A stretch of DNA of 64,000 nucleotides from Archivesica marissinica (Eukaryota; Mollusca; Bivalvia; Venerida; Vesicomyidae): NCBI GenBank assembly GCA_014843695.1, contig CM026390.1, forward strand, positions 101,436,722 to 101,500,721, written 5' to 3'. A model generated the notes under the pieces. It saw only the letters and a list, made by a program, of their open reading frames with translations, was not told the origin of the DNA and made no database searches. The stretch's first letter is position 1, and each line of letters begins with the position of its first letter. Made by a program: the position numbers and the translations under genes. Below are positions 1,692 through 53,000 of the stretch, in pieces.

Positions 1692-1911
1692 AATCAATCA
1701 TGTAATTGTGTCACTGGTTGATACACTAATCAATCATGTAATTGTGTCACTGGTTGATACACTAATCAATCATGTAATTGTGTCACTGGTTGATACACTA
1801 ATCAATCATGTAATTGTGTCACTGGTTGATACACTAATCAATCATGTAAGTGTGTCACTGGTTGATACACTAATCAATCAATCATGTAATTGTGTCACTG
1901 GTTGATACACT
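1692..1911. repeat. 36-bp minisatellite, about 6 copies
   Basis: Motif ATCATGTAATTGTGTCACTG. The sixth copy carries a 4-bp AATC insertion. The array and all flanking sequence recur exactly at 5083-5302. Confidence 0.95.
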
Positions 1912-2207
1912 AACCATTGGAGCACCAGAAATATAATAAGGAAGTAAAGTATTGCATCTTTTGTATGTAGCACAACCTAACTATACTACTTCAAAAATAA
2001 ATAAAACAACATTCCATAACACAATTCCATCTTATGATCTATGATGTGTAATCTAGTTTCTCTAGTTTCATTACAAAACCTGTTCTAACAGTTTCGAATT
2101 TCAAAGAGTTATGCTATTTATAACACCACTAATTGGATACGTTCTACTTAAAAATCTAATTAAGAATAGATCAAATATACACAAAAAGCACCTGCAACTG
2201 CAATACA

Positions 2208-5082: not shown

Positions 5083-5302
5083 AATCAATCATGTAATTGT
5101 GTCACTGGTTGATACACTAATCAATCATGTAATTGTGTCACTGGTTGATACACTAATCAATCATGTAATTGTGTCACTGGTTGATACACTAATCAATCAT
5201 GTAATTGTGTCACTGGTTGATACACTAATCAATCATGTAAGTGTGTCACTGGTTGATACACTAATCAATCAATCATGTAATTGTGTCACTGGTTGATACA
5301 CT
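5083..5302. repeat. 36-bp minisatellite, second occurrence
   Basis: Identical in copy number, internal variants and flanks to 1692-1911, offset by 3,391 bases. Confidence 0.95.
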
Positions 5303-5598
5303 AACCATTGGAGCACCAGAAATATAATAAGGAAGTAAAGTATTGCATCTTTTGTATGTAGCACAACCTAACTATACTACTTCAAAAATAAATAAAACAA
5401 CATTCCATAACACAATTCCATCTTATGATCTATGATGTGTAATCTAGTTTCTCTAGTTTCATTACAAAACCTGTTCTAACAGTTTCGAATTTCAAAGAGT
5501 TATGCTATTTATAACACCACTAATTGGATACGTTCTACTTAAAAATCTAATTAAGAATAGATCAAATATACACAAAAAGCACCTGCAACTGCAATACA

Positions 5599-26000: not shown

Positions 26001-29000
26001 AGCTTATAGATGTCTTCTCCTATTATAGCTTATAGATGTCTTCTCCTATTATAGATTATAGAGGTCTTCTCCTATTATAGCTTATAGATGTCTTCTCCTA
26101 TTATAGCTTATAGAGGTCTTCTCCTATTATAGCTTATACATGTCTTCTCCTATTATAGATGTCTTCTCCTATTATAGATTATAGAGGTCTTCTCCTATTA
26201 TAGCTTATAGATGTCTTCTCCTATTATAGCTTATAGATGTCTTCTCCTATTATAGATTATAGAGGTCTTCTCCTATTATAGCTTATACATGTCTTCTCCT
26301 ATTATAGATGTCTTCTCCTATTATAGATTATAGAGGTCTTCTCCTATTATAGCTTATAGATGTATTCTCCTATTATAGCTTATAGATGTCTTCTCCTATT
26401 ATAGCTTATAGATGTCTTCTCCTATTATAGATTATAGAGGTCTTCTCCTATTATAGCTTATAGATGTCTTCTCCTATTATAGCTTATATATGTCTTCTCC
26501 TATTATAGCTTATAGAGGTATTCTCCTATTATAGCTTTTAGATGTCTTCTCCTATTATAGAGTATAGAGGTCTTCTCCTATTATAGCTTATAGATGTCTT
26601 CTCCTATTATAGCTTATAGATGTCTTCTCCTATTATAGATTATAGAGGTCTTCTCCTATTATAGATTATGGAGGTCTTCTCCTATTATAGCTTATAGATG
26701 TCTTCTCCTATTATAGCTTATATATGTCTTCTCCTATTATAGATTATACATGTCTTCTCCTATTATAGCTTATATATGTCTTCTCCTATTATAGCTTATA
26801 GATGTCTTCTCCTATTATAGCTGATATATGTCTTCTCCTATTATAGCTTATAGAGGTCTTCTCCTATTATAGCTTATATAGGTCTTCTCCTAGTATAGCT
26901 TATATATGTCTTCTCCTATTATAGCTTATAGATGTCTTCTCCTATTATAGATTATAGAGGTCTTCTCCTATTATAGATTATGGAGGTCTTCTCCTATTAT
27001 AGCTTATAGAGGTCTTCTCCTATTATAGCTTATAGAGGTCTTCTCCTATTATAGCTTATAGATGTCTTCTCCTATTATAGCTTATATATGTCTTCTCCTA
27101 TTATAGCTTATAGAGGTCTTCTCCTATTATAGCTTATACATGTCTTCTCCTATTATAGCTTATAGATGTATTCTCCTATTATAGCTTATAGAGGTCTTCT
27201 CCTATTATAGCTTATAGAGGTCTTCTCCTATTATAGCTTATAGAGGTCTTCTCCTATTATAGCTTATACACGTCTTCTCCTATTATAGCTTATAGATGTC
27301 TTCTCCTATTATAGCTTATAGATGTCTTCTCCTATTATAGCTTATAGATGTCTTCTCCTATTATAGCTTATACATGTCTTCTCCTATTATAGCTTATAGA
27401 TGTATTCTCCTATTATAGCTTATAGAGGTCTTCTCCTATTATAGCTTATAGATGTCTTCTCCTATTATAGCTTATATATGTCTTCTCCTATTATAGCTTA
27501 TAGATGTCTTCTCCTATTATAGCTTATAGATGTCTTCTCCTATTATAGTTTATAGAGGTATTCTCCTATTATAGCTTGTAGATGTCTTCTCCTATTATAG
27601 CTTATAGATGTCTTCTCCTATTATAGCTTATAGATGTCTTCTCCTATTATAGCTTATAGATGTCTTCTCCTATTATAGCTTATAGAGGTCTTCTCCTATA
27701 TGTTGTACATTGGACACCGGTTCTACACCGGCTATATTATTGGTGCAACCTATGATACAGAATATCTTTGAAATATTATATACACGTATATTGTGTATCA
27801 TCAATGCTAGTCAAAATGATGCTCAGGAAACTAGGAAATCTGTGTTAAGCAGCCACTCAAGGGAAGTGACTATTTTGGCCACTTACGGCAGGTCATGTGG
27901 AATGGCCGCCAATTATAAAATAACATCTACATGTATCATAATTCTGGCAGTCTGAATTTCTTTTAATTGACCCACAAATCAGCCATATCAGAATGAACAA
28001 TACAAGATTTGAACGTTGGGATCTCCCACTCCACTATGCAATGGAGACGACAGCCATATCAGAATGAACAATACAAGGTTTGAATGTTGGGATCTCCCAC
28101 TCCACTATGCAATGGAGACGAATGTGTCCATCAACATTTATTCACTAATTTTGGCCGCTTATTTTAGCTGTATATTTTACTATCAATTTAAGGATTGTAC
28201 ATAACAAGAATTTCTTATTGTTCACATAGATCTGCATGAAGAGCTTTAACCCATATCAAGAATTAACCAAATATCATGCCATTATCTTTTTCTAGCAAAA
28301 TGGTAGACTAAGAAACATTATGTTGTTCCTATGGCAACAGTTCCAAAATATTTACATTTGTTATCGAAATATAAAAGGCATGTATGAAAGTATGAACAGA
28401 ATATGCCTGATAGTATACAAGTTTAAATGGCCATCAGTTTTATTTTCAAAATAGAGCAGAGTGTACGTACAAGTCCATGCATCTGTAATTTAGCCTGGAG
28501 TTTTATTCAGCTGGATTTTACTCAGACTATCCATAAAAATACCAGAAAAGGCACCAACAATTTTTTTAAAGCTTGTTCTAAGTTAAATTAAACATAGATA
28601 CATGTGCAATATGACAAAACCGCATATGATTGTGTTATATATGAATGTATGGCATTAAACCTCCACGGTGTAATGGATATGGTATCCGCCTTATAACCGA
28701 CAGGTTGTCAGTTTGAGCCCCGTCAGAACCATAGTGGTGGTGTCCTAATGCAAAAACACTTAAATCCGCATTGCCTTGTTTCTGTCTCCCTCGTGGTCTT
28801 GAGAGCGATTAATCTAATGTTGTAAATACTTGTTTCACAATCGAAATAAATGTTTTGTATAATTGAATGGCATGAAGAATGCAGAACAAGAAGATATACC
28901 ATGATAAGCTTATCACCCGTTTTCAGGGTTCCATCAGAAAGTGCGGGGTTCTGCAATACTGCCTTCACATAGCAGCCCCCTGTGGTTTTGGCCCCTCCTG

Positions 29001-32000
29001 CCACTGTAAACCCAAGACCCCGACCATCAGGCTTGGTCAAGGTCACTACAAATTCCTACAAATTAGAATATTACATTACTAAGACAACCCGCTGTAATAT
29101 AAACATTCTAAAGAAACTCCTGGTACTATTGTTAGAATAATCTACACTACACATGGACGGACGGACGAACATATAAAATGAGCTGAAGCAGGAAATAACA
29201 ATTAAACACATGTGATCTTTGGTAGGCTGAAGTCGCTTTGACCAGATTATCTCGCTGCTGCCGAGTCAGGTTATATGGCACAGTTTAATTTATGTGGCAC
29301 CTAATAGGAATGAAACTTAATTCATACCTCATTTATAGTACATTCTACATCCGTTATGTCGAATTCCGTCGGATCAAACAAAATACCACGACATAACCGA
29401 AGTTTGACTTAACGATATTTGATATAAACATAGCCAGTTATATGTAAAATGATAGTGTCTGAAATGGGACTTTGATCCGACTTCGAGATAACCGGAGAAA
29501 TCAACATAGCGGATGTAGACTGTACATTCATTGGATGAAAAGTGTTAGTCTTGGAATCAATAGTTCAGATCTAGTACAATCACAATGCAGTAAAAGTACA
29601 TATTATATTAGGTGTCTCATCTGACCGCGTAAGTTAATTAAAAATAATATACACATTATTCCAATCTCCTATTCTTCGTTGCCGTTATATGTTATGTTAT
29701 GTTATATTTCGGGTTTTACGCCTGCATCAGCACCATTTTGGGCTATATCGCCGGCAGGCAGTTTACCTAACAGCACCTTTCCTGGGCAGGCTCCAGCGGT
29801 TAACCAGTACTTGGGTGTACCAACCTCCGTAAGAAACTGCCAACTTTTTCATATAAATGAGACACAGCCTGAGCCCGTGACCATCAGTGATGATAGGTTA
29901 CAGTGGTATGCAAGTCAGCGACCTTAACCACTCGACCACGGAGGCAGACTTCTTTGCCATAACGTTTAATATGATCTATCATACTGGAATGCAAATAACA
30001 TATTTAACATATTTAAATCAGGCTTTTTCCAGAAAGACTCAAGTTTGTATTATAGAGACTTCCAAATGTTATATGAGAAACACTTACCTCAATTCGAATG
30101 GGTTGTTGTTGCAATGACGGTGAGGGTGAGCCCCTCACCGAAGAATGGTCCGAAACAGATTCTCCACTTCCTTCTTCATCCTCTACTACATCATCATCAA
30201 CATCTTTTTGTTCTTGAAATATTATTTCTTCTCTTTCAACTCCATTATCATCATCATCAACAACATCATCTTCTTGAACATCATCATCATTACTAACATA
30301 ATTCTTATTTCTAACACTGAATTCACTATCATCCTCTTTCAGATCATCATGAACTTCTTGAGGACCTTCACTACCAACAAAATCATCATCATCACCATCA
30401 TTATCATCCCTAACACTGTCATCATCTTCATTGTCCAGTTCTAGATACTGCTTTTCTAATTGTTTGACATCATCATCAACGTCATCATCAACGTCATCAT
30501 TTTCATCACTACTGTTCTCACCATTCACACTATTAACCCTATGATTCAAAGTTTCCTTACTATTTACATCATTGTCTAAATCATCAGTATTTACATAAGC
30601 ACCGTCTAAATCATCTCTAAGTATATCAATAACATCATCATAATTTTGGTCTACAGAGTAGGTATTTACATGACTGGTTCCCATTTCCAGTGATGCTTCA
30701 ACAGACTGTGCATCTGCCTGTGAGACAGAATAGGAGCCCAGTCTGTCATCAACACCAACTGAGGTAGATAAGTCAGTTTTCGATAAATTACCAGTATCAA
30801 TTTCCGAAAGCACTTCAGCCTGACTATTGTGAGACTGGAAAGTACTTTCTAAACTACGAATTCCATCTAAATTCTCAACTGATGAACCTGGTACAGACAC
30901 TTCAGAGTCAGATTGTAAACTATCTTGTGATATCTGTCTACAATGATGGGCACCAAAATCTACGTGTTCAATATCTGACAAATTTGCTTCCCTTTCCAGG
31001 GCATCTTCATCCTCTACAGGAGTGACATCCCCTGCATTATTTATACACGGTGTTACCTCCCTTGATGATTCTGCCTCTACAGGAGTGACATCCCCTGCAT
31101 TATTTATACACGGTGTTACCTCCCTTGATGATTCTGCCTCTACAGGAGTGACATCCCCTGCATTATTTATACACGGTGTTACCTCCCTTGATGATTCTGC
31201 CACTACTGGAGTGACATCCCTGGAATCCACAGTAAGTGCTGAATCTTCCCTGACAATTAGGCTTCCATTTAACATTTGATGAGCCATATGGTTCCTCTTT
31301 GCATTATGTATGAGCACCATTTCATGGGTACAACTGTCCATCAGCTCTGCCACCCCGACCTGAACCTCAACCTCATCTCCTATCGAGGCATCATCCTCAT
31401 ACCCTGTATTCAGTAGAATAGGTGGGGGACTGATTGGCAGTGGGGGTGGAGGACTACCAGCCCTCACAAATATATTCTCATCATCAACATCTGGATACGG
31501 TGATGACACAGCAAACCCAGAGGGTATGCTACTTAATGCTTCCTGCCTTGGTGTAAATTCTATGTCACTATCTGTGTCACTATCTGTGTCGGTAACATTT
31601 GCAGTGCTGCCAGTTGGAGTTATTTCTAAGGATTCTTCACTTTCCTGAAATAAAACCAAACAGTGAACGTGTTCTATGAAAATGTAAAGCATGGTATTTA
31701 ATACTGACAGGATGTTAAGCATACAGATGGATCTGTAGTCCAGTGGTAACCCGCTGGACTGGTAATCCAGGTACCGCAGGTTCGATCCCCCGTCTGACCC
31801 TAATCAAATTAACAGTCTTTCAGATGGGACTTTAAACCAAGGTCTCATGTCGGTGCTGTACACCATGCACATAAAAGAACCAGAGGAGATTCTGGAATGT
31901 GTCTCTGTCTGTATCATTGCACTATCCTCCAAAAATCTAAAATGACTAATCTCTTCAGAAGGCGTCGCTCATATGGGCAACTGGTAGCGCCGATAAATAA

Positions 32001-35000
32001 ACGTAAAACGCACACAATTTTTAGCAATATCCAAGTTGATGATAGCGGTATCTTTTAAATAAAAATAAAATCCAATAATGACTGTATCATAAAACTGTAT
32101 CACAAAAGATATAGAGGATATTTGTGTTTATTTGTGTAAGATATAGAGGATATTTGTGTTTATTTGTGTAAGATATAGAGGATATTTGTGTTTATTTGTG
32201 TAAGATATAGAGGATATTTTGTGTTTATTAGTGTAAGATATAGAGGATATTTGTGTTTATTAGTAACGCCACTCGTGGAAATACAAATTTCGGTGATCAC
32301 TCGATGAAATAAAATCCTATCTTACACTAATAAACACAAATCTTCTTTTTCTATTATGATTTCCAATGACTGGCTAATATAATATTTGTTTTTAAATTTT
32401 ATTCATTTTAACTACCCTGTCTGGAGCCTCATTCCACTACATGACACAACTGTACAATAATTGTAGAAATAGTTCCTGTATACCGGTAATTTTCAAATTA
32501 GTTTCTGTTTGCTGTTTGTTAAAAACTACAGACAATGTGTGTTTTACGCTTATTTATCGTTGATACCGGTTGCCCATATGAGCGACGCCTCCTGAAGAGA
32601 TTAGTTATTTTAGATTTTGGAGGATAGTGCATGATACAGACAGAGACCAATTCCAGAATCTCCTCTGGTTCTTTTACATGCACGGTGTAAAGCACCGACA
32701 CGAGACCTCTGTTTAAGGTCCCATCTGAAAGACTGTTAATTTTATTAGGGTCAGACGGGGGATCGCACCTGCGATCCCTGAATTACCAGTCCAGCGTGTT
32801 ACCACTGGACTACAGATCTGTCTGTAACTACAGACAAAACAAATTCATTAGAATATATTGCTTAATAATTAACTGTTCATGATAGTCAGAAAATAGCTAA
32901 AATACAAAAGTACATCTAACAGCGCAGGCATTCGAAACGCAACAGGTGGATGAAGCGGTGTAAGATGGGAGTTTTCTTTCACTGAGAAAAACTTTATCAT
33001 TCATTGGAAAGCATATAGTAAATTATCAGAGGAAGAGCAAGCTTACCAGCTGAACCAAGGGAGGTAACTGTTGTGGATCTGGTTGGCACATGAGCAGATG
33101 TACATGTTTACCAGCAGTTCGCAGTCGCGACATTGTCTCCTGTAATATGAATTATTACAATCAGCTAAAGTATAATGAATGCCACTGGACTTGATTCCTA
33201 CAAGACAATTATCGTGGGTACACAATGTATTAAACTAACGTAATTGAATGCCGCATCGTGGGTACACAATGTACCAAACTAACGTATAATTGAATGCTGC
33301 ATCGTGGGTATATACACAATGTACCAAACTAACGTATAATTGAATGTCACATCGTGGGTATATACACAATGTACCAAACTAGCATATAATTGAATGCCAC
33401 ATCGTGGGTATATACACAATGTACCAAACTAATGTATAATTGAATGTCACATCGTGGGTATATACACAATGTACCAAACTAACGTATAATTGAATGCCAC
33501 ATCCTGGGTATATACACAATGTACCAAACTAACGTATAATTGAATGTCACATCGTGGGTATATACACAATGTACCAAACTAACGTATAATTGAATGCCAC
33601 ATCGTGGGTATATACACAATGTACCAAACTAACGTATAATTGAATGTCACATCGTGGGTATATACACAATGTACCAAACTAACGTATAATTGAATGTCAC
33701 ATCGTGGGTATATACACAATGTACCAAACTAGCATATAATTGAATGCCACATCGTGGGTATATACACAATGTACCAAACTAATGTATAATTGAATGTCAC
33801 ATCGTGGGTATATACACAATGTACCAAACTAATGTATAATTGAATGTCACATCGTGGGTACACAATGTACCAAACTAACGTATAATTGAATGCCACATCG
33901 TGGGTATATACACAATGTACCAAACTAACGTATAATTGAATGTCACATCGTGGGTATATACACAATGTACCAAACTAACGTATAATTGAATGTCTGAAGT
34001 GTATGTAGACCCACTGAGCAGTGTACATCTGGAGTGTCTGTAGATCCATTGAGCAGTGTACATCTGGAGTGTCTGTAGATCCATTGAGCAGTGTATATCT
34101 GGAGTGTCTGTAGATCCATTGAGCAGTGTACATCTGGAGTGTCTGTAGATCCATTGAGCAGTGTACATCTGGAGTGTCTGTAGATCCACTGACCAGTGTA
34201 CATATAGAGTGTATGTAGATCCACTGACCAGTGTACATATGGAGTGTCTGTAGATCCACTGAGCAGTGTACATCTGGAGTGTCTGTAGATCCACCGAGAA
34301 GTGTACATCTGGAGTGTCTGTAGATCCACTGAGCAGTGTACATCTGGAGTGTCTGTAGATCCATTGAGCAGTGTACATATGGAGTGTCTGTAGATCCATT
34401 GAGCAGTGTACATATGGAGTGTCTGTAGATCCACTGAGCAGTGTACATCTGGAGTGTCTGTAGATCCATTGAGCAGTGTACATCTGGAGTGTCTGTAGAT
34501 CCACTGAGCAGTGTACATATGGAGTGTCTGTAGATCCATTGAGCAGTGTACATATGGAGTGTCTGTAGATCCACTGAGCAGTGTGCATCTGGAGTGTCAG
34601 TAGATCCATTGAGCAGTGTACATCTGGAGTGTCTGTAGATCCACTGAGCAGTGTACATCTGGAGTGTCTGTAGATCCACTGAGCAGTGTACATCTGGAGT
34701 GTCTGTAGATCCACTGAGCAGTGTACATCTGGAGTGTCTGTAGATCCACTGAGCAGTGTACATATGGAGTGTCTGTAGATCCACTAAGCATTGTACATAT
34801 GGAGTGTCTGTAGATCCACTGAGCAGTGTACATATGGAGTGTCTGAAGATCCACTGAGCAGTGTACATCTGGAGTGTCTGTAGATCCACTGAGCAGTGTA
34901 CATATGGAGTGTCTGTAGATCCACTAAGCAGTGTACATATGGAGTGTCTGTAGATCCACTGAGCAGTGTACATATGGAGTGTCTGTAGATCCATTGAGCA

Positions 35001-38000
35001 GTGTATATCTGGAGTGTCTGTAGATCCACTGAGCAGTGTACATCTGAAGTGTCTGTAGATCCACTGAGCAGTGTACATATGGAGTGTCTGTAGATCCATT
35101 GAGCAGTGTACATCTGGAGTGTCAGTAGATCCATTGAGCAGTGTACATATGGAGTGTCTGTAGATCCACTGAGGTGCTTCAACCTAGTACCCTGGTGTCT
35201 GGTGTTGACCAGTTAAATATACAAGGATGAATGGGAGAGTGTCTGGTGTTGTCCAGTTAAATATACAAGGATAAATAGGAATGGCTGGTGTTGACCAGTT
35301 AAATATACAGGGATAAATAGGAGTGTCTGGAGTTGACCAGTTAAATATACAAGGATAAATAGGAATGTCTGGTGTTGTCCAGTTAAATATACAAGGATGA
35401 ATAGGAATGTCTGGTGTTGTCCAGTTAAATATACAAGGATGAATAGGAGTGTCTGGTGTTGTCCAGTTAAATATATTTAGAAAATAGACCATGATGGATA
35501 GTAAAGATGGCTGTTGGAGGAAGGTGAAAGTCACGAAGGATCACAATATACGTACATTGTGAGTAAGACCAGCTACTGATTGCCTGTTCACAGCCAGTAT
35601 GACATCACCCGAGTGTATAACACCACTATCAGCAGCTGGACCGATCGGGAACACACGCTTTATTCTCACTACACGATGTTCCAGCTTAGCATTCCTGTCC
35701 TGGTGACCTCCTACTGTGCTGAACCCCAGGCCATAACTACCTTTTGGCAGGTTTATAGCATATGTGTTCTCTACGGAATAAACAGATGTTTTAATGAAAG
35801 TACCACAGGCTATAACATAATAGAACAGAAGTCATACAAAAATGTGATAAATACATTACTGTACTAAAAGATGTTAAAATGTTTACAAACATTCAATAGT
35901 TAGACATTTACAAGTCAAAATGCATGTACCGTAAACACGTTTTTTTAAAGCAAGCTATGTTCAAGACTTTTTAAAGCTATGTTCAAGACTTTTTAAAACA
36001 ATTCATCAAATAAAATGTCCAGATAAACATTTGAAAATGTTCCGTAATAATGTCTAAACTAGGCTGGTATTCCTCCCGACACACTCTGTATACCTCCCGA
36101 CACACTCTGTATTCCTCCCGACACACTCTGTATACCTCCCGACACACTCTGTAATCCTCCCGACACACTCTGTATACCTCCCGACACACTCTGTATTCCT
36201 CCCGACACACTCTGTATACCTCCCAACACACTCTGTATACCTCCCGACACACTCTGTATACCTCCCGACACACTCTGTATTCCTCCCGACACACTCTGTA
36301 TACCTCCCGACACACTCTGTATTCCTCCCGACACACTCTGTATTCCTCCCAACACACTCTGTATACCTCCCGACACACTCTGTATTCCTCCCAACACACT
36401 CTGTATTCCTCCCAACACACTCTGTATACCTCCCGACACACTCTGTATACCTCCCAACACACTCTGTATACCTCCCGACACACTCTGTATGCCTCCCAAC
36501 ACTACTCTGTATACCTCCCGACCCACTCTGTATACCTCCCGACCCACTCTGTATGCCTCCCGACACACTCTGTATGCCTCCCGACACACTCTGTATGCCT
36601 CCCGACACACTCTGTATGCCTCTATTATTGTTAGGGATGGCAACGAATGGTGATTTTGGTATTTGAATATTCGGATGATCTTCCAAACGAATATTCGCTA
36701 ATTTCTTGAACTTTCGATTTCCACTTTACTTTCGTCGCTGCGAGGTAACACCGTTTCACAATGGCATGGTAGAATTCATGTGTGTGACAGCTTTCAGCAT
36801 TGCCAACCATTGTGGATGACAGCTTTCAGCATTGCCAACCATTGTGGATGCAAACAGCACGAGTCATAAACAAATAAAGACGGCTTGTGTTGATTGTTTT
36901 TATTGCACTCAATATTGAGCAGATACCTGCGTGTTTACAAACTGCAATTGATGTCGTGTAACGTCTTTTGAAGCTTGCCTACAGTAATAGGTTTAATACA
37001 CTTTAATTACATGCACATGTGTTGACATCAAACGTTCCGCCAATAACCGTCATGTTTTAGTGTGAATCATTAAACTCTTTGTATGTTTTCACGGGCTACA
37101 ATTAGTGTCTGTAAAACAAATGCTTCTCAGTTTGTGTCCGTCAAATAGACTGCATTAATCAATTAGTTGCACCTGTAAGTATGAGCAACTTGTCATCACT
37201 TGCCTTTGTTATTTGGACCCAACTCGCGATAACTTTTCGCACCTTCGGGCCCGCATTGGGTCATTCTTTTGTGTTTGAATCTTAATTAATTGATTGAAAT
37301 TTAAACAAACAGTTATATAATTTAACTGCAATTTATTCCAAAAATTAGAATTTTATTTTTTTAATATTCGAATACGATTTTAACATTCGAATATTCAGAG
37401 GTTCGAACGAATATTCGAACATTCGTTGCCATCCCTAATTTTTTACAATAAATTCCTAACCAAAACAACATACATTCAGATACTCTGATCGGTATATTTA
37501 CCTTCAGTTGTAAAAATATCATAGACATCATCCATCTCCTGACCGGTTTCCTGTTTAAGATCTGGGGAACCAGATGATCTATTTGTAGATTTCTGGGATA
37601 TGTGACTGCTGATCGATGAATTGCGTGACCTTGGTGATCTTTCAACAAGAAGTTTACAGAATGGCGGAGCAGTACATAAAGCTTCTATCGCCTGTCTGTG
37701 AGTGAACCCATCCAAGCTCACACTGTCTACCTCAAGGATTCTATCACCTATAAATGTAGATTTGAAACTAAATGTATACTGTACTGAATATTCTGTATAA
37801 GTACTTGAACAGTAACAGCAAAGTACGTGAAGTATTGGTAACTGGTTTATTATTATTCATTGGTGTATCAAACTGACACAATATTTTGTGTGTTTTACGT
37901 TTATTTATCGTCGCTACCGGTTGCCCATATGAGCGAAGAGACTAGTCATTTTAGATTTTTGGAGGAGAGTGCAAGACCCATTCCAGAGTCTCCTCTGGGT

Positions 38001-41000
38001 TTTTTTACATGCATGGTGTAAAGCATCGACACGAGACCTCGGTTTAAAGTCCCATCTGAAAGACTGTTATTTTATTAGGGTCAGACGGGGGATCGCACCT
38101 GCGATCCCTGGATTACCAGTCCAGCGTGTTACCACTGGACTACAGATCCGTCTGTCTGACACAATAAAATATATTACCAGTATATAATAGTCTAGTCTCC
38201 ATGTTACTATGGTTACCTTGTCTAACAGTTCCATCAGAGTCTGCAGTACTGTCCTTGACAATAGATTTCACATAGATACCACCATGTTTTACACTAGTGT
38301 TTACGCCACCCTACAATAAACAATGCATAGCCACAATTGCATTAACAAATTCAGCAACATATTACAGGACATAGATGATATTTGTTTGTTTCAGTGAATG
38401 ATCAAATTATATTTCACCGAATGAACATTGAAAGCATTATTATCCCGAGTGGCTCTAGCCACAAGTGTTAATGATAGCTTTATATTAGGGATGTCAACGA
38501 ATATTCGCTTGGACGTTCGAATATCCGAATACAATTACAATATTCGGAAAAAATATTATATTTGCAAAAATGAAATAAACTGTCATAAATCAGATACTTT
38601 GTTTTCTTTTGAAACCATCATAAAACCTTTCAATACAAAAGAAATCACCCCAGGATATGTGAATAAACCATGTTGTGGTCGCATCCATGGCAGGCGTTAA
38701 TTGACACTCTGCCATGTAATCGGATAATTACAGGACATTTTGCAACAACACCCACCCCCACGTATCTTAAAATTTTAATTAACTGCTCAATATTACCAAA
38801 ATGTACAATTTAAAGTACGATTTTTATGATGGTTACGGGTTTGAGCCGTGTCTCATTTTCATAAGAGTTTGAGTGACTTAGAGTTTTTGATAGAATTATA
38901 TGGAATATTCGAATACCTTCCCGACCGAATATTCAAATACCAAAATCACTATTCGTTGCCATCCCTACTATTTTTAGATAAAATTACCCATTTTGATAAA
39001 TGAACTGGTCCAAATGTAATTTTCTTATTATTTTATTGATCTATTAATATCATGAACCAGTCCATGTCAATTACTTGATGTTGAATGGGTTAAACAGGAG
39101 ATACAGGTACATACTGTGACATTGAGTCCAAATGAACCCTGTTGTTTCTCCAAGAATACTTCAAACACTTCCGCTCCCTCTACTGGAGAGTCAACACTTC
39201 TCTCACTGAAAACATGTAATTATAAAACTTAATTGTTTTTTCAAAAATATTAGTATTTATAAATTGTTCTATATGTACAGGCATAACATCTGGTGTTGTT
39301 TATCGGGGATATCTCCTCGTCATACCTACACATCGTCATACCTACACATCATCATACCTACACATCGTCATACCTACACATCATCATACCTACATATCGT
39401 CATACCTAGTCATACCTACACATCGTCAATCCTACACATCATCATACCTACACATCGTCATACCTACACATCATCATACCTAGTCATACCTACACATCAT
39501 CATACCTACATATCGTCATACCTAGTCATACCTACACATCATCATACCTACATATCGTCATACATACACATCGTCATACCTACACATCGTCATACCTAGT
39601 CATACCTACACATCATCATACCTACACATCGTCATACCTACACATCATCATACCTACACATCGTCATACCTACACATCATCATACCTACACATCGTCATA
39701 CCTAGTCATACCTACACATCATCATACCTACACATCGTCATACCTACACATCGTCGTACTACACATCATCATACCTACACATCATCATACCTACACATCA
39801 TCATACCTACATATCATCATACCTAGTCATACCTACACATCATCATACCTACACATCATCATACTACACATCGTCATACCTACACATCATCATACCTACA
39901 CATCGTCATACCTAGTCATACCTACACATCATCATACCTACACATCATCATACCTACACATCATCATACCTACACATCGTCATACCTAGTCATACCTACA
40001 CATCATCATACCTACACATCATCATACTACACATCGTCATACCTACACATCGTCATACTACACATCGTCATACCTACACATCGTCATACCTAGTCATACC
40101 TACACATCATCATACCTACACATCGTCATACTACACATCATCATACCTACACATCATCATACCTACACATCATCATACCTACACATCGTCATACCTACAC
40201 ATCATCATACCTACACATCGTCATACCTAGTCATACCTACACATCATCATACCTACACGTCGTCATACTACACATCATCATACCTACACATCGTCATACC
40301 TACACATCATCATACCTACATATCGTCATACCTACACATCGTCATACCTACACATCGTCATACCTACACATCGTCATACTACACATCATCATACCTACAC
40401 ATCCTACACATCGTCATACCTACACATCATCATACCTACACATCCTACACATCGTCATACCTACACATCATCATACCTACACATCATCATACCTACACAT
40501 CATCATACCTACACATCGTCATACCTACACATCATCATACCTACACATCCTACACATCGTCATACCTACACATCGTCATACCTACACATCGTCATACCTA
40601 CACATCATCATACCTACACATCATCATACCTACACATCCTACACATCGTCATACCTACACATCATCATACCTACACATCGTCATACCTACACATCATCAT
40701 ACCTACACATCGTCATACCTACACATCATCATACCTACACATCGTCATACTACACATCGTCATACCTACACATCGTCATACCTACACATCCTACACATCG
40801 TCATACCTACACATTGTCATACCTACACATCATCATACCTTCACATCGTCATACCTAGTCATACCTACACATCATCATACCTACACATTGTCATACCTAC
40901 ACATCGTCATACCTACACATCATCATACCTACACATCATCATACCTACACATCGTCATACCTACACATCGTCATACCTACACATCATCATACCTACACAT

Positions 41001-44000
41001 CATCATACCTACATATCGTCATACCTAGTCATACCTACACATCGTCATACCTACACATCGTCATACCTACACATCGTCATACCTACACATCGTCATACCT
41101 ACACATCGTCATACCTACACATCGTCATACCTACACATCGTCATACCTACACATCGTCATACCTACACATCGTCATACCTACACATCGTCATACCTACAC
41201 ATCGTCATACCTACACATCGTCATACCTACACATCGTCATACCTATACATCGTCATACCTACACATTGTCATACCTAGTCATACCTACACATCGTCATAC
41301 CTACACATCGTCATACCTACACATCGTCATACCTACACATCATCATACTACACATCGTCATACCTACACATCATCATACCTACACATCGTCATACCTAGT
41401 CATACCTACACATCATCATACCTACACATCGTCATACATACACATCGTCATACCTACACATCGTCATATATATTTATCATGTTTATATTTGTAATTGTAT
41501 TGTATATAAACAAGCAATAAAATATGATTAAACTAAGACCCTAATAAAATTAACAGTCTTTCAGAAGGGATTTTAAACTGAGGTCTCGTGTCGAAGCTTT
41601 ACACTGTGCACGTAAAAGAACCAGAGACTCTGGAATGGGTCTCTGTCTGTATCATTGCGCTATTCTCAGAAATAAATAATGACTAATCTCTTCAGGAGAC
41701 GTCACTCATATGGGCAACCGGTAGCGACGATAAATAAACGTAAAACACAAACACGCTACATCAAGGGGTAGACAACAACATTTTGTCAGTTCCAGACAGT
41801 CTTTTTGTGAAATGCAGGAAATCATATATATGTAGCTATAATTGTATTAATCTCTGTAGTGTTCCAGGAAATCGCAACACTAACTACAAACTTGCAGGTA
41901 CGTGGTTGGACTATGTTTGTAGGAGTGCAGTTACCTGGTTGGACTATGTTTGTAGGAGTGCAGTTACCTGGTTGGACTGTGTTTGTAGGAGTGCAGTTAC
42001 CTGGTTGGACTATGTTTGTAGGAGTGCAGTTACCTGGTTGGACTGTGTTTGTAGGAGTGTGGTTACCTGGTTGGACTGTGTTTGTAGGAGTGTGGTTACC
42101 TGGTTGGACTGTGTTTGTAGGAGTGCAGTTACCTGGTTGGACTGTGTTTGTAGGAGTGCAGTTACCAGGTTGGACTGTGTTTGTAGGAGTGCAGTTACCT
42201 GGTTGGACTGTGTTTGTAGGAGTGAAGTTACCTGGTTGGACTGTGTTTGTAGGAGTGCAGTTACCTGGTTGGACTGTGTTTGTAGGAGTGTGGTTACCTG
42301 GTTGGACTGTGTTTGTAGGAGTGCAGTTACCTGGTTGGACTGTGTTTGTAGGAGTGCAGTTACCTGGTTGGACTGTGTTTGTAGGAGTGCAGTTACCTGG
42401 TTGGACTGTGTTTGTAGGAGTGCAGTTACCTGGTTGGACTGTGTTTGTAGGAATGTGGTTACCTGGTTGGACTGTGTTTGTAGGAGTGCAGTTACCTGGT
42501 TGGACTGTGTTTGTAGGAGTGTGGTTACCTGGTTGGACTGTGTTTGTAGGAGTGCAGTTACCTGGTTGGACTGTGTTTGTAGGAATGTGGTTACCTGGTT
42601 GGACTGTGTTTGTAGGAGTGTGGTTACCTGGTTGGACTGTGTTTGTAGGAGTGCAGTTACCTGGTTGGACTGTGTTTGTAGGAGTGCAGTTACCTGGTTG
42701 GACTGTGTTTGTAGGAATGTGGTTACCTGGTTGGACTGTGTTTGTAGGAGTGCTGTTACCTGGTTGGACTGTGTTTGTAGGAGTGCAGTTACCTGGTTGG
42801 ACTGTGTTTGTAGGAGTGCAGTTACCTGGTTGGACTGTGTTTGTAGGAATGTGGTTACCTGGTTGGACTGTGTTTGTAGGAGTGCAGTTACCTGGTTGGA
42901 CTGTGTTTGTAGGAGTGTGGTTACCTGGTTGAACTGTGTTTGTAGGAGTGCAGTTACCTGGTTGGACTGTGTTTGTAGGTGTGCAGTTACCTGGTTGGAC
43001 TGTGTTTGTAGGAGTGTGGTTACCTGGTTGGACTGTGTTTGTAGGAGTGCAGTTACCTGGTTGGACTGTGTTTGTAGGAGTGCAGTTACCTGGTTGGACT
43101 GTGTTTGTAGGTGTGCAGTTACCTGGTTGGACTGTGTTTGTAGGAGTGTGGTTACCTGGTTGGACTGTGTTTGTAGGAGTGCAGTTACCTGGTTGGACTG
43201 TGTTTGTAGTAGTGTGGTTACCTGGTTGGACTGTGTTTGTAGGTGTGCAGTTACCTGGTTGGACTTGTTTGTAGGAGTGCAGTTACCTGGTTGGACTGTG
43301 TTTGTAGGAGTGCAGTTACCTGGTTGGACTGTGTTTGTAGGAGTGCAGTTACCTGGTTGGACTGTGTTTGTAGGAGTGCAGTTACCTGGTTGGACTGTGT
43401 TTGTAGGAGTGCAGTTACCTGGTTGGACTGTGTTTGTAGGAGTGCAGTTACCTGGTTGGACTGTGTTTGTAGGAGTGCAGTTACCTGGTTGGACTGTGTT
43501 TGTAGGTGTGCAGTTACCTGGTTGGACTGTGTTTGTAGGTGTGCAGTTACCTGGTGGACTGTGTTTGTAGGAGTGCAGTTACCTGGTTGGACTGTGTTTG
43601 TAGGTGTGCAGTTACCTGGTTGGACTGTGGTTGTAGGAGTGTGGTTACCTGGTTGGACTGTGTTTGTAGGAGTGCAGTTACCTGGTTGGACTGTGTTTGT
43701 AGGAGTGCAGTTACCTGGTTGGACTGTGTTTGTAGTAGTGTGGTTACCTGGTTGGACTGTGTTTGTAGGTGTGCAGTTACCTGGTTGGACTATGTTTGTA
43801 GGAGTGCAGTTACCTGGTTGGACTGTGTTTGTAGGAGTGCAGTTACCTGGTTGGACTGTGTTTGTAGGAGTGTGGTTACCTGGTTGGACTGTGTTTGTAG
43901 GAGTGCAGTTACCTGGTTGGACTGTGTTTGTAGGAGTGCAGTTACCTGGTTGGACAGTGTTTGTAGGAGTGCAGTTACCTGGTTGGACTGTGTTTGTAGG

Positions 44001-47000
44001 AGTGCAGTTACCTGGTTGGACTGTGTTTGTAGGTGTGCAGTTACCTGGTTGGACTGTGTTTGTAGGAGTGCAGTTACCTGGTTGGACTGTGTTTGTAGGT
44101 GTGCAGTTACCTGGTTGGACTATGTTTGTAGGAGTGCAGTTACCTGGTTGGACTGTGTTTGTAGGAGTGCAGTTACCTGGTTGGACTGTGTTTGTAAGAG
44201 TGAAGTTACCTGGTTGGACTGTGTTTGTAGGAGTGAAGTTACCTGGTTGGACTGTGTTTGTAGGAATGAAGTTACCTGGTTGGACTGTGTTTGTAAGAGT
44301 GCAGTTACCTGGTTGGACTGTGTTTGTACGAGTGCAGTTACCTGGTTGGACTGTGTTTGTAGGAGTGCAGTTACCTGGTTGGACTGTGTTTGTAGGAGTG
44401 CAGTTACCTGGTTGGACTGTGTTTGTAGGAGTGAAGTTACCTGGTTGGACTGTGTTTGTAGGAGTGCAGTTACCTGGTTGGACTGTGTTTGTAGGAATGT
44501 AGTTACCTGGTTGGACTGTGTTTGTAGGAGTGCAGTTACCTGGTTGGACTGTGTTTGTAGGAGTGCAGTTACCTGGTTGGACTGTGTTTGTAGGAGTGCA
44601 GTTACCTGGTTGGACTGTGTTTGTAGGAGTGTGGTTACCTGGTTGGACTGTGTTTGTAGGAGTGCAGTTACCTGGTTGGACTGTGTTTGTAGGAGTGTGG
44701 TTACCTGGTTGGACTGTGTTTGTAGGAGTGCAGTTACCTGGTTGGACTGTGTTTGTAGGAGTGCAGTTACCTGGTTGGACTGTGTTTGTAGGAGTGTGGT
44801 TACCTGGTTGGACTGTGTTTGTAGGAGTGCAGTTACCTGGTTGGACTGTGTTTGTAGGAGTGCAGTTACCTGGTTGGACTGTGTTTGTAGGAGTGCAGTT
44901 ACCTGGTTGGACTGTGTTTGTAGGAATGTGGTTACCTGGTTGGACTGTGTTTGTAGGAGTGCAGTTACCTGGTTGGACTGTGTTTGTAGGAGTGCAGTTA
45001 CCTGGTTGGACTGTGTTTGTAGGTGTGCAGTTACCTGGTTGGACTGTGTTTGTAGGAGTGTGGTTACCTGGTTGGACTGTGTTTGTAGGAGTGCAGTTAC
45101 CTGGTTGGACTGTGTTTGTAGGAGTGTGGTTACCTGGTTGGACTGTGTTTGTAGGAGTGCAGTTACCTGGTTGGACTGTGTTTGTAGGAGTGCAGTTACC
45201 TGGTTGGACTGTGTTTGTAGGAGTGCAGTTACCTGGTTGGACTGTGTTTGTAGGAGTGTGGTTACCTGGTTGGACTGTGTTTGTAGGAGTGCAGTTACCT
45301 GGTTGGACTGTGTTTGTAGGAGTGCAGTTACCTGGTTGGACTGTGTTTGTAGGTGTGCAGTTACCTGGTTGGACTGTGTTTGTAGGAGTGTGGTTACCTG
45401 GTTGGACTGTGTTTGTAGGAGTGCAGTTACCTGGTTGGACTGTGTTTGTAGTAGTGTGGTTACCTGGTTGGACTGTGTTTGTAGGTGTGCAGTTACCTGG
45501 TTGGACTATGTTTGTAGGAGTGCAGTTACCTGGTTGGACTGTGTTTGTAGGAGTGCAGTTACCTGGTTGGACTGTGTTTGTAGGAGTGCAGTTACCTGGT
45601 TGGACTGTGTTTGTAGGAGTGCAGTTACCTGGTTGGACTGTGTTTGTAGGAGTGCAGTTACCTGGTTGGACAGTGTTTGTAGGAGTGCAGTTACCTGGTT
45701 GGACTGTGTTTGTAGGAGTGCAGTTACCTGGTTGGACTGTGTTTGTAGGTGTGCAGTTACCTGGTTGGACTGTGTTTGTAGGAGTGCAGTTACCTGGTTG
45801 GACTGTGTTTGTAGGTGTGCAGTTACCTGGTTGGACTGTGTTTGTAGGAGTGCAGTTACCTGGTTGGACTGTGTTTGTAAGAGTGAAGTTACCTGGTTGG
45901 ACTGTGTTTGTAGGAGTGAAGTTACCTGGTTGGACTGTGTTTGTAGGAATGAAGTTACCTGGTTGGACTGTGTTTGTAAGAGTGCAGTTACCTGGTTGGA
46001 CTGTGTTTGTACGAGTGCAGTTACCTGGTTGGACTGTGTTTGTAGGAGTGCAGTTACCTGGTTGGACTGTGTTTGTAGGAGTGAAGTTACCTGGTTGGAC
46101 TGTGTTTGTAGGAGTGCGGTTACCAGGTTGGACTATGTTTGTATGAGTGCAGTTACCTGGTTGGACTGTGTTTGTAGGAGTGTGGTTACCTGGTTGGATT
46201 GTGTTTGTAGGAGTGCAGTTACCTGGTTGGACTGTGTTTGTAGGAGTGTGGTTACCTGGTTGGACTGTGTTTGTAGGAGTGCAGTTACCTGGTTGGACTG
46301 TGTTTGTAGGAGTACAGTTACCTGGTTGGACTGTGTTTGTAGGAGTGCAGTTACCTGGTTGGACTGTGTTTGTAGGAGTGCAGTTACCTGGTTGGACTGT
46401 GTTTGTAGGAGTGCAGTTACCTGGTTGGACTGTGTTTGTAGGAGTGCAGTTACCTGGTTGGACTGTGTTTGTAGGAGTGAAGTTACCTGGTTGGACTGTG
46501 TTTGTAGGAGTGCAGTTACCTGGTTGGACTGTGTTTGTACGAGTGCAGTTACCTGGTTGGACTGTGTTTGTAGGAGTGCAGTTACCTGGTTGGACTGTGT
46601 TTGTAGGAGTGAAGTTACCTGGTTGGACTGTGTTTGTAGGAGTGCAGTTACCTAGTTGGACTGTGTTTGTAGGAGTGCAGTTACCTGGTTGGACTGTGTT
46701 TGTAGGAGTGCAGTTACCTGGTTGGACTGTGTTTGTAGGAATGTGGTTACCTGGTTGGACTGTGTTTGTAGGAGTGCAGTTACCTGGTTGGACTGTGTTT
46801 GTAGGAGTGCAGTTACCTGGTTGGACTGTGTTTGTAGGTGTGCAGTTACCTGGTGGACTGTGTTTGTAGGTGTGCAGTTACCTGGTTGGACTGTGGTTGT
46901 AGGAGTGTGGTTACCTGGTTGGACTGTGTTTGTAGGAGTGCAGTTACCTGGTTGGACTGTGTTTGTAGTAGTGCGGTTACCTGGTTGGACTGTGTTTGTA

Positions 47001-50000
47001 GGTGTGCAGTTACCTGTTTGGACTATGTTTGTAGGAGTGCAGTTACCTGGTTGGACTGTGTTTGTAGGAGTGCAGTTACCTGGTTGGACTGTGTTTGTAG
47101 GAGTGCAGTTACCTGGTTGGACTGTGTTTGTAGGAGTGCAGTTACCTGGTTGGACAGTGTTTGTAGGAGTGCAGTTACCTGGTTGGACTGTGTTTGTAGG
47201 AGTGCAGTTACCTGGTTGGACTGTGTTTGTAGGTGTGCAGTTACCTGGTTGGACTGTGTTTGTAGGAGTGCAGTTACCTGGTTTGACTGTGTTTGTAGGT
47301 GTGCAGTTACCTGGTTGGACTGTGTTTGTAGGAGTGCAGTTACCTGGTTGGACTGTGTTTGTAAGAGTGAAGTTACCTGGTTGGACTGTGTTTGTAGGAG
47401 TGAAGTTACCTGGTTGGACTGTGTTTGTAGGAGTGAAGTTACCTGGTTGGACTGTGTTTGTAGGAGTGCAGTTACCTGGTTGGACTGTGTTTGTACGAGT
47501 GCAGTTACCTGGTTGGACTGTGTTTGTAGGAGTGCAGTTACCTGGTTGGACTATGTTTGTAGGAGTGCAGTTACCTGGTTGGACTATGTTTGTATGAGTG
47601 CAGTTACCTGGTTGGACTGTGTTTGTAGGAGTGCAGTTACCTGGTTGGACTGTGTTTGTAGGAGTGCAGTTACCTGGTTGGACTGTGTTTGTAGGAGTGA
47701 AGTTACCTGGTTGGACTGTGTTTGTAGGAGTGAAGTTACCTGGTTGGACTGTGTTTGTAGGAGTGAAGTTACCTGGTTGGACTGTGTTTGTAGGAGTGAA
47801 GTTACCTAGTTGGACTGTGTTCGTAGGAGTGCAGTTACCTAGTTGGACTGTGTTTGTAGGAGTGCAGTTACCTGGTTGGACTGTGTTTGTAGGAGTGCAG
47901 TTACCTGGTTGGACTGTGTTTGTAGGAGTGAAGTTACCTGGTTGGACTGTGTTTGTAGGAGCGTTCTAGTACTTGGTTTACTACATCCTCAAACTCAGAG
48001 TCTGTGTCAGATTCACCAAACATCTCTGTACCATCTGAATTCAAACCAAACAAACAACTTTTATTTCAACTAAATGTAATACAAGTTATACAACAAGTTC
48101 TTATTTATAGTTTATACAAATTTATTTTAGCTCTATTGTGAAACTCTTGAGACCTCATTCCTGATGAAATCCATTAGTTTAAACTTTATTTATTTTACAA
48201 CGATTGCGAAGTAAGTTCTAACAACTTCTATTAATCACTCTTGTTGGCGCGGATGAAAGCGTAAATGTGGTCATTTAATCCTGATGGAATCCATTGCCAT
48301 GATGGAGAGAGAGAAGAGACAATGTGGACTTAAGTGTCTTGCCTAAAGACATGATCACCGTGGTTCTGATGGAGCCTGAAGTGACAAGCCCTAGATTACA
48401 AGGTACACAACATACTAATCATTTAATGAGTTCTCATTCCTGCAGAATTCACTGGTTTCTTCTTATATAAATGTTTCTGTTAATGAGTGATGTTTCTGTT
48501 AATGATAAATGTATCTGTTAATGATAGATGTTTCTGTTAATGATAGATGTTTATGTTAATGATAGCTGTTAATGATAAATGTTTCTGTTAATGATAGATG
48601 TTTCCGTTAATGATAAATGTTTCTGTTAATGATAAATGTTTCTGTTAATGAAAGATGTATATGTTAATGATAAATGTCTCTGTTAATGATAGATGTTTCT
48701 GTTAATGATAGATGTTTCTGTTAATGATAGATGTTTCTGTTAATGATAAGTTAATATACATTAAATGCTGCATTTTAGAAGTCATGAAGTAAAGGGAGAG
48801 ATTCTCGAGGAGGAGAAGAATTATTTAAGGAATGAAGGTTAATAGATTCCATCGGGTATGAACTACATTGGGCGTGTTTAAAGTGTGCGGATGCCGAATG
48901 CCTTTGCTCCCTAGAGCAAACACCTCTGTTCAAAGACATTGTATTTATCTCCAATTAGTATTTAATGAACAATTTTACCTCACGACAACAACAAAATCTC
49001 TACAACAAATACAATTTTGAGTTCTGAAAGGTGTTGCAGAGAAGTTCAACTGTGGTATTCTACAGTGTTTCATTGACAACACTGTAAGGTACGTATTTAA
49101 TGCTTAGAATACGTTTCAGGGAAGTTGAGATCATATGATAGTAAGATATCTACACTGTTTACTATTCTGTAAATCTGCAATCCTGATGACTGGATTGATC
49201 CATATTCAATAGCCATCAGAATGTTCACAGACACAATGCTCCTTCATAGAAGATAAATAAAATATAGAAGCAAGAAGTACATTATAATGCTTTAGCCTGC
49301 AACCCCAGCTCCCGTGGGGGTTGTGGATGGGATATAATGGATAAAATGTGTTAGGTGTTTACAGATCAGCAGTTAATTAACTATCTGGAAATACCCAGGG
49401 TTAAACTTTGTGCCAAACATACCACATGAATAATTCGCTATTTCTTTTCCGGAGGGCTATTATAACTAGCTAACATAAACTCATGCTGGGCTTCCACCCG
49501 AAATGCTGGGCTTCCACCCCAGAATGGGGGGGCTTCCACCCGGAATGCTGGGCTTCAACCCGAAATGCTGAGCTTCCACCCCAGAATGGGGGGCTCCCGC
49601 CTGGAATGCTGGACTTCCACCTGGAATGATGGGCTTCCACCTGGAATGCTGGGCTTCCACCCCAGAATACTGGGCTTCCACCCCGGAATACTGGGCTTCC
49701 ACCCCAGAATGGGGGGCTCCCACCTGGAATGCTGGGCTTCCACCTGGAATTCCACCTGGAATGCTGGGCTTCTACCCCGGAATACTGGGCTTCCACCAGG
49801 ATTGTTGGGCTCCCACCCGGATTGCTGGGCTCCCAACTGGAATCTGTTGTGAGATTTAAACCCTACCCATTCACTTGTCTTTGGTTGGGTTATCATTAAA
49901 TGGTGCAAAAATACTACTAATGTTTACAGATTATATGCAATCACATATCGTAACTTGTAAAACTAAATATCAAAAGATGCCCACATATTCACCAATTCAT

Positions 50001-53000
50001 TACCTTACAATTAGATATTCACTGGGATGTTTGCAAAAACATGAACTCAGATACTAAACAATGGAGAAACTGAAGAGCAAGATATGAGTAGCTTACCGTC
50101 CTGCCTATCAGCGGGTAGCTCTGACACTGCCATCTCTGTGTACAGAGAATCTACCTGGGATAACGTGGAATGTACATCAATTGTTGCCGATGTTGGCCTT
50201 TCCTGGTCCACACATTCATCCAGTTTCTCTGGACTGCCGAACTGTTCGCTAACTATATCAACATTTTTTTCTTGTTTTTTATCAACATTTTTTGAATTTT
50301 TATCATTTTTGTCCAATATGTCTTGATTATGTACAGATGTACAATTACGTATAGTAATTACAGGTGGGGACGTAGATTCACACGCACTGTATCTGAATGA
50401 ACTATTTTCCTCATTACTCTCCAATGATTTACGTCTAACCGCAAATGTTCTTTCCAATTTTGACTGCGAGTCAGTATCTGATTCATCGTCAATATCAAAT
50501 TCTCGCCTCCGTAGCGAACGAGGTGGTCGTACTTGTGATATCAGCAATCTGATCGTATTGCGAGATTGCTTGATCATGCTGACAGCTTCGTGGTGCTGCA
50601 TGCATTCCAAACTCTGATCATTGATAGCAATAAGTCGATCACCCGGTTTAATGCGGCCATCTTCAAACGCTGGTCCGTCAACAGTTACAGATTTAACGAA
50701 GATGCCAAAGTCGTGTTTACTTGATGAGTCTCCTCCTACGATAGTGATACCTATACCAACTGTTGGCTGCTTAGAGAGTATGACTTCAAACACTTCTCGC
50801 TCCAAGACATCACATTCTGGGGAAAGTAGTTCATTCGTAAAGCGTTGATGAAGGGTATCTGTAAGTAGATTAACAACATTATAATATGGTCTTGCCTCCC
50901 AATGTGATCATGCACCGTCTAGTATGACATCATCATTCTGGACGGAGGTTTTAATTTAACAAGTTCTATAAATGTGTGGAAGTCGTGATAGCGCAGTGGT
51001 AGCGCGTTCGCTTCAGTTGCGAACGGCCCAGGTTCGAGCCCTGCTGGAGCCATTACGATTGTGCCCTTAGCCAAGGCATTTAAATTCCATGTTGCCTTTT
51101 CTCGCTCCCTCGTGACGATGGATTCCATCAGGAATGAGGTCTTGAGAGCGATTAATATAAGTTGTAAGAACTTGTTTCGCAATCGAGCTAAAATAATTTT
51201 GTATACACTAATAAATGGATAAACGTATCACTATTTTAAGCTCATTGAAAAATAAATACCGATAAAATACATAGGAAATTTTGTATGTGGCTAAAAGTTT
51301 AAATGCTGTTGTGATGCATGCACCTTGAACCCGGCACAATCTTCAGAGAATACAGTCAAACACATTGTGACTTACTGCTAATGGTTTCGTTTCCAGGAGG
51401 GGAACACAGAGTCATGTCCATGGAACGTGTGCTTGTGTCTATGAAATAAACAATGGTCTGTATAATACATAAGTTATATGAAGAAAGTTCATTTGATGCA
51501 AATCAAAATTGATTCATTCAAGTATACAACGTATGTCACCAGTATGCGACACATGCCTCCTAACCATGCAAGAGATTTAACATTCAAGGTATAGACACGA
51601 ATGTTATACACATTGTATGCTTAGACTTTACAGAGGCTTTAATAATTTCCTAGACATCAGAGATTTACAACCTTTGACATTTTAAATGCAGCTTTAAACC
51701 TTGAAGGGAACAGGAGCTGAATGTCTGGTTGTGAAGCACAACACTGTTGTTAACATTTGTTTGACGTTTGATGAACTTTTCATTGGTAAAGACTCTAATA
51801 CTGTTGATCAGTTTAATCACGATGAAAGATAATAACACCCGACTCAAAGGAGGCATATTAATTATCAAGCGTAGCTAAAACACAAAATCAACATGACATG
51901 ACAGCATAGAGTTGGCACCAACAGTCAAAGATTGATCTCCGCTTTACCAACAGCTTAGAATTAGTCACAATTTTATATTGCACATGCACAGAATATATAA
52001 AAAAAATATATAACTCATTTCCACACCAATATCTAATCAGCATTCACAGGAAGAATTGTGGTATTTATTGTGCATGCTTAGACACTATGAATATCCAATA
52101 TTCTGTTGTGGCCCATTGTAACAACGGTTATCACATACTATATGAATATATTGACATTTCTCACAGCTCTAATATGAAGAAGTCTCGAAATTCATATCAG
52201 CCTCCACGTATGCTTGCATTTACATACTATATCAGCCTTGTACTTTCATACTCTCCATGTATCATTGTCCTTACATACTATATCAGCCTTGTACTTCCAT
52301 ACTCTCCATGTATCATTGTCCTTACATGCTATATCAGCCTTGAATACTCCTCATGTATCATTGTACTTACATGCTATATCAGCCTTGAATACTCTTCATG
52401 TATCATTGTCCTTGCATGCTATATCAGCCTTGTACTTTCATATCTACTCTCCATGTATCATTGACCTCGCATGCTATATCAGCCTTGAACACTCTTCATG
52501 TATCATTGACCTTACATGCTATATCAGCCTTGTACTTTCATATCTACTCTCCATGTATCATTGTCCTTACATGCTTTATCAGCCTTGAATACTCTTCATG
52601 TATCATTGTACTTACATGCTATATCAGCCTTGAATACTCTTCATGTATCATTGTCCTTGCATGCTATATCAGCCTTGTACTTTCATATCTACTCTTCATG
52701 TATCATTGACCTCACATGCTATATCAGCATTGTACTTGCATATCTACTCTCCATGTATCATTGTCCCCACATGCTATATCAGCCTTGTACTTCCATATCT
52801 ACTCTCCATGTACCATTGCCCTTGCATGCTATATCAGCCTTGTACTTTCATACTCTCCATGTATCATTGACCTTGCATGCTATATCAGCCTTGTACTTTC
52901 ATACTCTCCATGTACCATTGCCCTTGCATGCTATATCAGCCTTGTACTTTCATACTCTCCATGTACCATTGCCCTTGCATGCTATATCAGCCTTGTACTT

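Follow-up and report, generated by a model that had tools for sequence, protein, structure and literature searches.

A 33-bp minisatellite of 184 copies spanning a predicted 5' splice site in a PTPN13-like gene of the bivalve Archivesica marissinica

A 64,000-nucleotide stretch of the genome of the vesicomyid bivalve Archivesica marissinica (GenBank assembly GCA_014843695.1, contig CM026390.1, positions 101,436,722 to 101,500,721; hereafter, the window) carries on its minus strand a PTPN13-like gene with PDZ and protein tyrosine phosphatase (PTP) domains, the modelled part of which occupies 14168..50858. Here, we report that the second modelled exon of this gene, E2, ends in a 33-bp minisatellite of 184 copies (41893..47961, minus strand; Tandem Repeats Finder [TRF] and a parse into units) with a 5' splice site in each copy, copy 1 consisting of the end of E2 and the authentic donor.

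Sixteen exons (E1 to E16) were picked by splice signals, phase, and domain content; the model covers part of the gene, whose ends lie beyond it. Joined in phase, the exons contain 0 stops in 1,721 codons. PTPN13 chains were among the PDB matches of the model, and the closest proteins among the 120 of 1,909 matches listed were bivalve PTPN13-like proteins (Mactra antiquata, Dreissena, and Mya), the Mactra antiquata protein with 55% identity across 41% of the query; Branchiostoma matches in the same list had 50 to 51% identity across 14%. E1 (50097..50858, minus strand) encodes the first PDZ domain (Pfam PF00595), starts at an acceptor chosen by score, and may not be the gene's first exon. E2 (47938..48034, minus strand; 97 nt), placed by its splice phases, open frame, and an acidic core conserved in bivalves, supplies its last 24 nt as the exonic part of the repeat unit. 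By the unit parse and the gene model, the predicted authentic GT of intron 2 (47936..47937, minus strand) is the first of 184. Intron 2 (39206..47937, minus strand; 8,732 nt, phase 2) contains the 33-bp array and a separate 16-bp array (39317-41468), both located with TRF, and is followed by E3 (39115..39205, minus strand), which is in frame with E2 and starts the second PDZ domain. One codon is split between E1 and E2 and another between E2 and E3 (E3 from 39205), and both junctions are in frame.

An initial annotation of the window, made from the letters alone, had taken E2 for a real exon and the parent of the array. The stop-free model agrees with this, as do the homologs: the 10-residue acidic core of E2 is present in the Mactra protein and, with one change (SDTDSDFEDV), in that of Mya, and 9 of 13 chosen homologs aligned continuously through the E2 junction (the 4 without an alignment anchor were dropped). 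Because E2 is 97 nt long, skipping it shifts the frame, and eight codons into the new frame a stop follows, at codon 261.

TRF gave a period of 33, 184.0 copies, and 95% matches at 41893-47961; chance is no issue for a 6-kb array of this regularity. On the minus strand, the array runs from 47961 to 41893, each unit comprising 24 exon bases that finish in CAG and 9 intron bases, GTAAC plus four more. Parsing yielded 184 units, of which 181 measure 33 bp and 3 measure 32 bp, all of them with GT; AGGTAA is found in 181, TGGTAA in 2, and CGTACC in the terminal copy. The annotation's count of about 183 tandem donors in transcription sense thus holds, 183 being correct for the additional donors, and the minus-strand orientation supports the sense. 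Its claim that the unit is exactly 24 exon bases plus 9 intron bases is true of E2's own copy (the last 24 exon bases followed by GTAACTTCA), a variant found in 14/184 units, but the commonest variant (79/184) deviates from that copy at intron position +7. Over nine bases, the donors read CAGGTAACT in 147 units, CAGGTAACC in 30, and TAGGTAACT in 3, with CAGGTAACA, CTGGTAACC, CTGGTAACT, and CACGTACCT once each; the authentic donor's nine bases are common to 147 of the 184 copies. Predicted U1 pairing energy is −8.3 in 177/184 copies and equal to that of the authentic donor, so the E2 donor is no stronger than its copies over nine bases, and the donors described as equal are better called near-equal.

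Searched against the 1.54-Gb assembly (1.537 Gb, 2,808 contigs), the array stretch gave matches of 92 to 100% identity at the E2 locus only, other matches being at 66 to 72%; because very common words were skipped, this search is not proof that there is no second copy. Five inspected sites of 66 to 72% identity (L009, L010, L011, L012, and L013) are arrays with other units of 31 to 37 bp, some of which share stretches like GTAACTGCACT or ATGTTTGTAG with the E2 array, either by chance among many arrays or through remote kinship. One frame of the array (437 codons) used as a protein query had no match at an E value of ≤0.001.

What a transcript would gain or lose by its choice of donor can be read from the frame. 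Every alternative donor (183/183) leads to TAA at the codon after the junction codon, just as had been predicted for any donor but the first. Across seven donor-spanning arrays of this genome (this one and six described below), an in-frame stop precedes 271/274 alternative donors, and the remaining 3 shift the frame.

The array follows ordinary minisatellite dynamics. Its 32 unit variants stand in ordered, recurring blocks of about 45 to 53 units, and its best self-alignment scores 61.5, whereas none of 20 shuffles exceeded 13.6. The 23 substitution alleles are scattered over the unit, and none falls in GT, for which the chance probability is 0.24. An excess of donor conservation among the copies was not found, either for GT (P = 0.24) or for AGGTAAC (P = 0.25). 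The copies show no evidence of being kept as donors by selection, and their sameness needs none, since homogenization accounts for it.

Two further donors of the same gene are spanned by arrays: that of E10 (22057-22245) by 3.1 copies of a 61-bp unit with 50 exon and 11 intron bases (21916..22106, minus strand), and that of E15 (16164-16329) by 6.6 copies of a 59-bp unit with 54 exon and 5 intron bases (15827..16217, minus strand), both located with TRF. The modelled gene has 17 arrays with 3 or more copies; 3 of them thus cross a donor (E2, E10, and E15) and 0 cross an acceptor. Uniform placement would lead one to expect 0.25 donor-crossing arrays, against the 3 observed, of which the E2 array, as the starting point of the analysis, is not an independent count. 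A 70-bp array found with TRF (21.9 copies; 14299..15825, minus strand) runs up to the base just before the E16 acceptor's AG; together with the 59-bp array, it makes up 1,864 of the 1,867 bp of intron 15 (14297-16163, minus strand).

We surveyed PTP-domain exons elsewhere in the genome for the same arrangement. Of 688 candidates, 150 were scored; the 30 best of these were taken and 20 more were hand-picked from the other 120 with the aim of avoiding repeated gene copies; the window's own E14 was among these 50 and was left out. The remaining 49 loci, which represent one domain family and are neither random nor independent, fall into 36 nonredundant groups, a grouping that also merges different exons of one gene. 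Score thresholds were 0 for donors and 0 for acceptors, and donor copies were counted within about 1.5 kb. In a positive control on the 16 window exons (thresholds, 2 for donors and 1 for acceptors), E2, E10, and E15 were found, the 13 other donors were clean, and acceptor-like matches appeared inside the 70-bp array before E16. Hits at two loci were disregarded because they do not lie at the edge of an exon: an acceptor-like one in L043, a long way from the match, and a single copy in L055 with a score of 0.1.

Donor-spanning arrays were found at 4/49 loci: L026 (10 donor copies at spacings of 68 to 151 bp, mostly 73 and 80; GT kept in 10/10), L040 (22 copies, 41 bp; GT in 21/22), L056 (30 copies, 51 bp; GT in 29/30), and L059 (28 copies, 52/61 bp; GT in 28/28). 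Acceptors are spanned by 68-bp arrays at L039 and L041, which are paralogous PTP-domain exons on contig C14. From array density over the 36 groups, 0.65 donor-spanning arrays would be expected against the 4 found (Poisson P for at least 4, 0.0045), while the probability of at least one acceptor group is 0.48. The donor excess is suggestive only, because the survey covers one family with loci partly hand-picked and partly related.

At all four of these donor arrays, the copy nearest the exon sits where array-free paralogs have their intron. Counted from the start of the VMLT motif, the first copies of L026 and L040 lie 33 nt on, in phase 0, a place shared by the donors of L022, L023, L027, L032, L034, and L042 (an intron is absent there in L017 and L019, and L036 and L053 were not placed). 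That of L056 is at the site of the L058, L061, and L062 donors, after the HC codons (L043 and L020 lack an intron at this site), and that of L059 is at +18 in phase 0, as in L033, L045, L048, L050, L051, L055, L060, and L063 (L021 lacks a donor there, and L035, L039, and L047 were not placed). Likewise, the exon-adjacent acceptor of L039 and L041 stands at −4 from the GxGR motif, as in 12 other loci. Since these positions are shared with array-free paralogs, the exon-proximal copy is taken as the ancestral site, with the arrays on the intron side; and since in 4/4 array genes that copy has the position and phase of the paralogs' intron, it is likely the working donor. Intron gain by tandem duplication of an AGGT segment was considered for L026, L040, L056, and L059 and rejected, their intron positions being shared with array-free paralogs.

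By its structure, the E2 array belongs to the boundary-spanning repeats, of the kind described as mirages in amphioxus and at the CBS gene in man. The amphioxus mirage minisatellites of Adh3, the globin genes BflGb6 and BflGb9, and TnC are reported as tandem repeats across exon-intron boundaries, both 5' and 3', that leave normal splicing undisturbed, and similar repeats are reported in PGBD5 (PMC3087553, PMC3902484). Like them, the E2 unit straddles a single splice site, with exon sequence on one side and intron sequence on the other, and copies that site, and its copies retain the splice signals (AGGT is kept in 181/184 units). The intact reading frame is indirect support for a normal mRNA that the copies leave undisturbed, and the block duplications within this one assembled array would fit a copy number that is unstable between haplotypes. 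Unlike them, it lies in a bivalve rather than a lancelet, in a gene with three affected donors, and has 184 copies against the 6 and 3 units reported for BflGb6 haplotypes (PMC3087553); mirage splicing is described as checked by reverse transcription-PCR, whereas splicing at the E2 array is predicted. The human CBS 31-bp variable-number tandem repeat, c.1444_1467+7(16_21), is located at exon 13-intron 13 (PMC1395315), and its unit combines 24 exon with 7 intron bases (PMC2630376); it likewise repeats the final 24 bases of an exon, together with the opening bases of the intron, into the intron, with 7 intron bases as opposed to 9 at E2 and with 16 to 21 copies as opposed to 184. A dose effect, in which more 31-bp repeats go with less CBS activity, is reported there as a feature of CBS (PMC5188458). 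In genes of human segmental duplications, variable tandem repeats of ~30 bp at exon-intron boundaries are reported to alter splicing (PMC2812944); these average ~4 units and are linked to novel introns, whereas the four clam genes share their intron positions with array-free paralogs. In abalone, an intron of one gene contains a 27-bp minisatellite of 62 units, which the available text of that report does not describe as boundary spanning (PMC6905558), and no case of a boundary-spanning repeat in a mollusc was found in searches of open-licence literature. The kind is thus already published; new here are the number of copies, the recurrence, and a bivalve as host.

We therefore read the locus as a boundary-spanning minisatellite at which, in all likelihood, only the exon-proximal donor is used, the other 183 being predicted decoys removed with the intron. 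The DNA itself establishes the array and its parent exon, a frame that stays intact through the first donor, a stop behind each of the others, and the higher-order blocks. A 33-bp segment across the E2 boundary would have been duplicated in tandem, with duplication of units and blocks to follow, and, since the first copy alone still closes a coding exon, growth would have fallen on the side of the intron. On general knowledge of splicing, the spliceosome would pick the donor nearest the E2 acceptor, 97 nt upstream, by exon definition, and the first donor may also be favored by its early synthesis; a rare pre-mRNA using a later donor would meet an immediate stop and probably be destroyed by nonsense-mediated decay. 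The array would be mostly tolerated, possibly at the cost of a mild loss of output that deepens as copies are added, the effect reported for the CBS repeat in man. The strict preference for the first donor that the initial annotation had called for gains indirect support from the intact coding frame and from the first copy's place at a conserved intron position in four other genes. Among competing donors, SRSF1 is reported to favor the intron-proximal and hnRNP A1 the intron-distal one (PMC5585400), so factors besides sequence strength are known to bear on the choice when donors are equal.

Several points weigh against this reading. First-donor use is a prediction. Exon definition alone would not separate the first donor from the next few, only 33, 66, and 99 nt on. 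Predicted RNA accessibility (0.043 at the first donor against a mean of 0.006 for the rest, with two copies higher still) would favor the first donor, but the prediction is weak and at most a hint. The excess of donor-spanning arrays (3 against 0.25 in the gene and 4 against 0.65 in the survey) goes, under simple assumptions, beyond what chance placement of minisatellites would give.

A different role for the later donors would be that of an expression dial, in which they send a fixed share of transcripts to nonsense-mediated decay and the length of the array sets PTPN13 output. The stop after each of the 183 alternative donors and a U1 match as good as that of the true donor in 177/184 copies would suit such a dial, and at human CBS more copies of the 24-plus-7-bp boundary repeat are reported to go with lower activity; by this analogy, tuning by nonsense isoforms is plausible. 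We nonetheless consider a functional dial unlikely, as the donors show no detectable constraint (none of the 23 substitution alleles is in GT, at the chance probability given above) and the similar arrays that other donors of the genome carry suggest mutation of a general kind more than a device specific to one gene. Because a dial need not be selected to exist, it differs from the decoy reading mainly in degree. A broader proposal, on which we would put hardly more weight than on the dial, is that 5' splice sites in this genome seed minisatellites several times above the rate elsewhere, perhaps via transcription- or U1-linked breaks at boundaries, and that decoy ladders could act as copy-number dials via nonsense-mediated decay in many genes.

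Far less weight falls on the notion that the array, in whole or in length, is an assembly artefact. Its copy number is an assembly value, and the window does have one assembly problem, a 1,000-N gap at 4083-5082 with 94% identical flanks, but the array itself has no N, carries its 32 unit variants in ordered blocks between unique sequence on both sides, and recurs, smaller, at other donors in the genome. Recursive splicing, in which each CAG|GT would act as a zero-length exon and intron 2 would be removed stepwise, had been thought conceivable and would match the AG directly before GT in 181/184 copies, the feature that the array has in common with ratchet points. The acceptor context of such points is missing: the unit AG has an acceptor score of −3.06, whereas the 16 real acceptors range from 0.29 to 6.23, its upstream sequence has 50% pyrimidines against 56 to 78%, and AG|GT is merely the exon end copied along with the donor. 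The idea is poorly supported and, in our judgment, highly improbable. Equally hard to credit is telescripting, by which 184 U1-binding sites would shield the long intron 2 from premature polyadenylation; U1 pairing is predicted to be as good as at the true donor in those 177 copies, yet intron 2 has 0 AATAAA and 0 ATTAAA, in the array and in the remainder alike, and so holds no canonical signal to suppress. The use of the first donor, with the remaining copies removed as decoys, remains the reading that we prefer.

Repeats of other kinds abound in the window. TRF arrays with many unrelated units take up 58% of its non-N sequence; elsewhere, the 36 surveyed locus groups have ~0.48 arrays per kb. 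E8 (31011-31220, minus strand) contains an in-frame coding tandem repeat (63 bp, 3.3 copies, 21-residue unit). The sides of the gap (1692-4082 and 5083-7499) are alike over ~2.4 kb and have the same 36-bp array at both starts, which likely reflects either duplication during assembly or a long repeat that the gap interrupts. A tRNA-headed interspersed repeat, likely a tRNA-derived short interspersed element, is present at 37890-38160, 32539-32825, 31720-32009, 19546-19834, and 41537-41748 (78 to 86% identity to the first); Rfam tRNA matches lie at 38077, 31729, and 19756, plus 50982.

Because similar repeats span splice sites of other genes in the genome, the E2 array is best seen as a very large example of a repeat type already known and not as a unique device. 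It extends the mirage repeats of amphioxus and the CBS repeat of man to a bivalve. Short-read junction mapping and gene prediction would fail at such arrays. A true donor followed by 183 near-identical ones makes a natural extreme test of 5' splice site choice, in which strength is constant and position varies. The three donors of this gene and the 4/49 PTP-domain exon loci form a series from few to 184 copies, with units of 33 to ~80 bp, in one genome, and donor choice, leakage, and the effect of copy number are therefore directly measurable.

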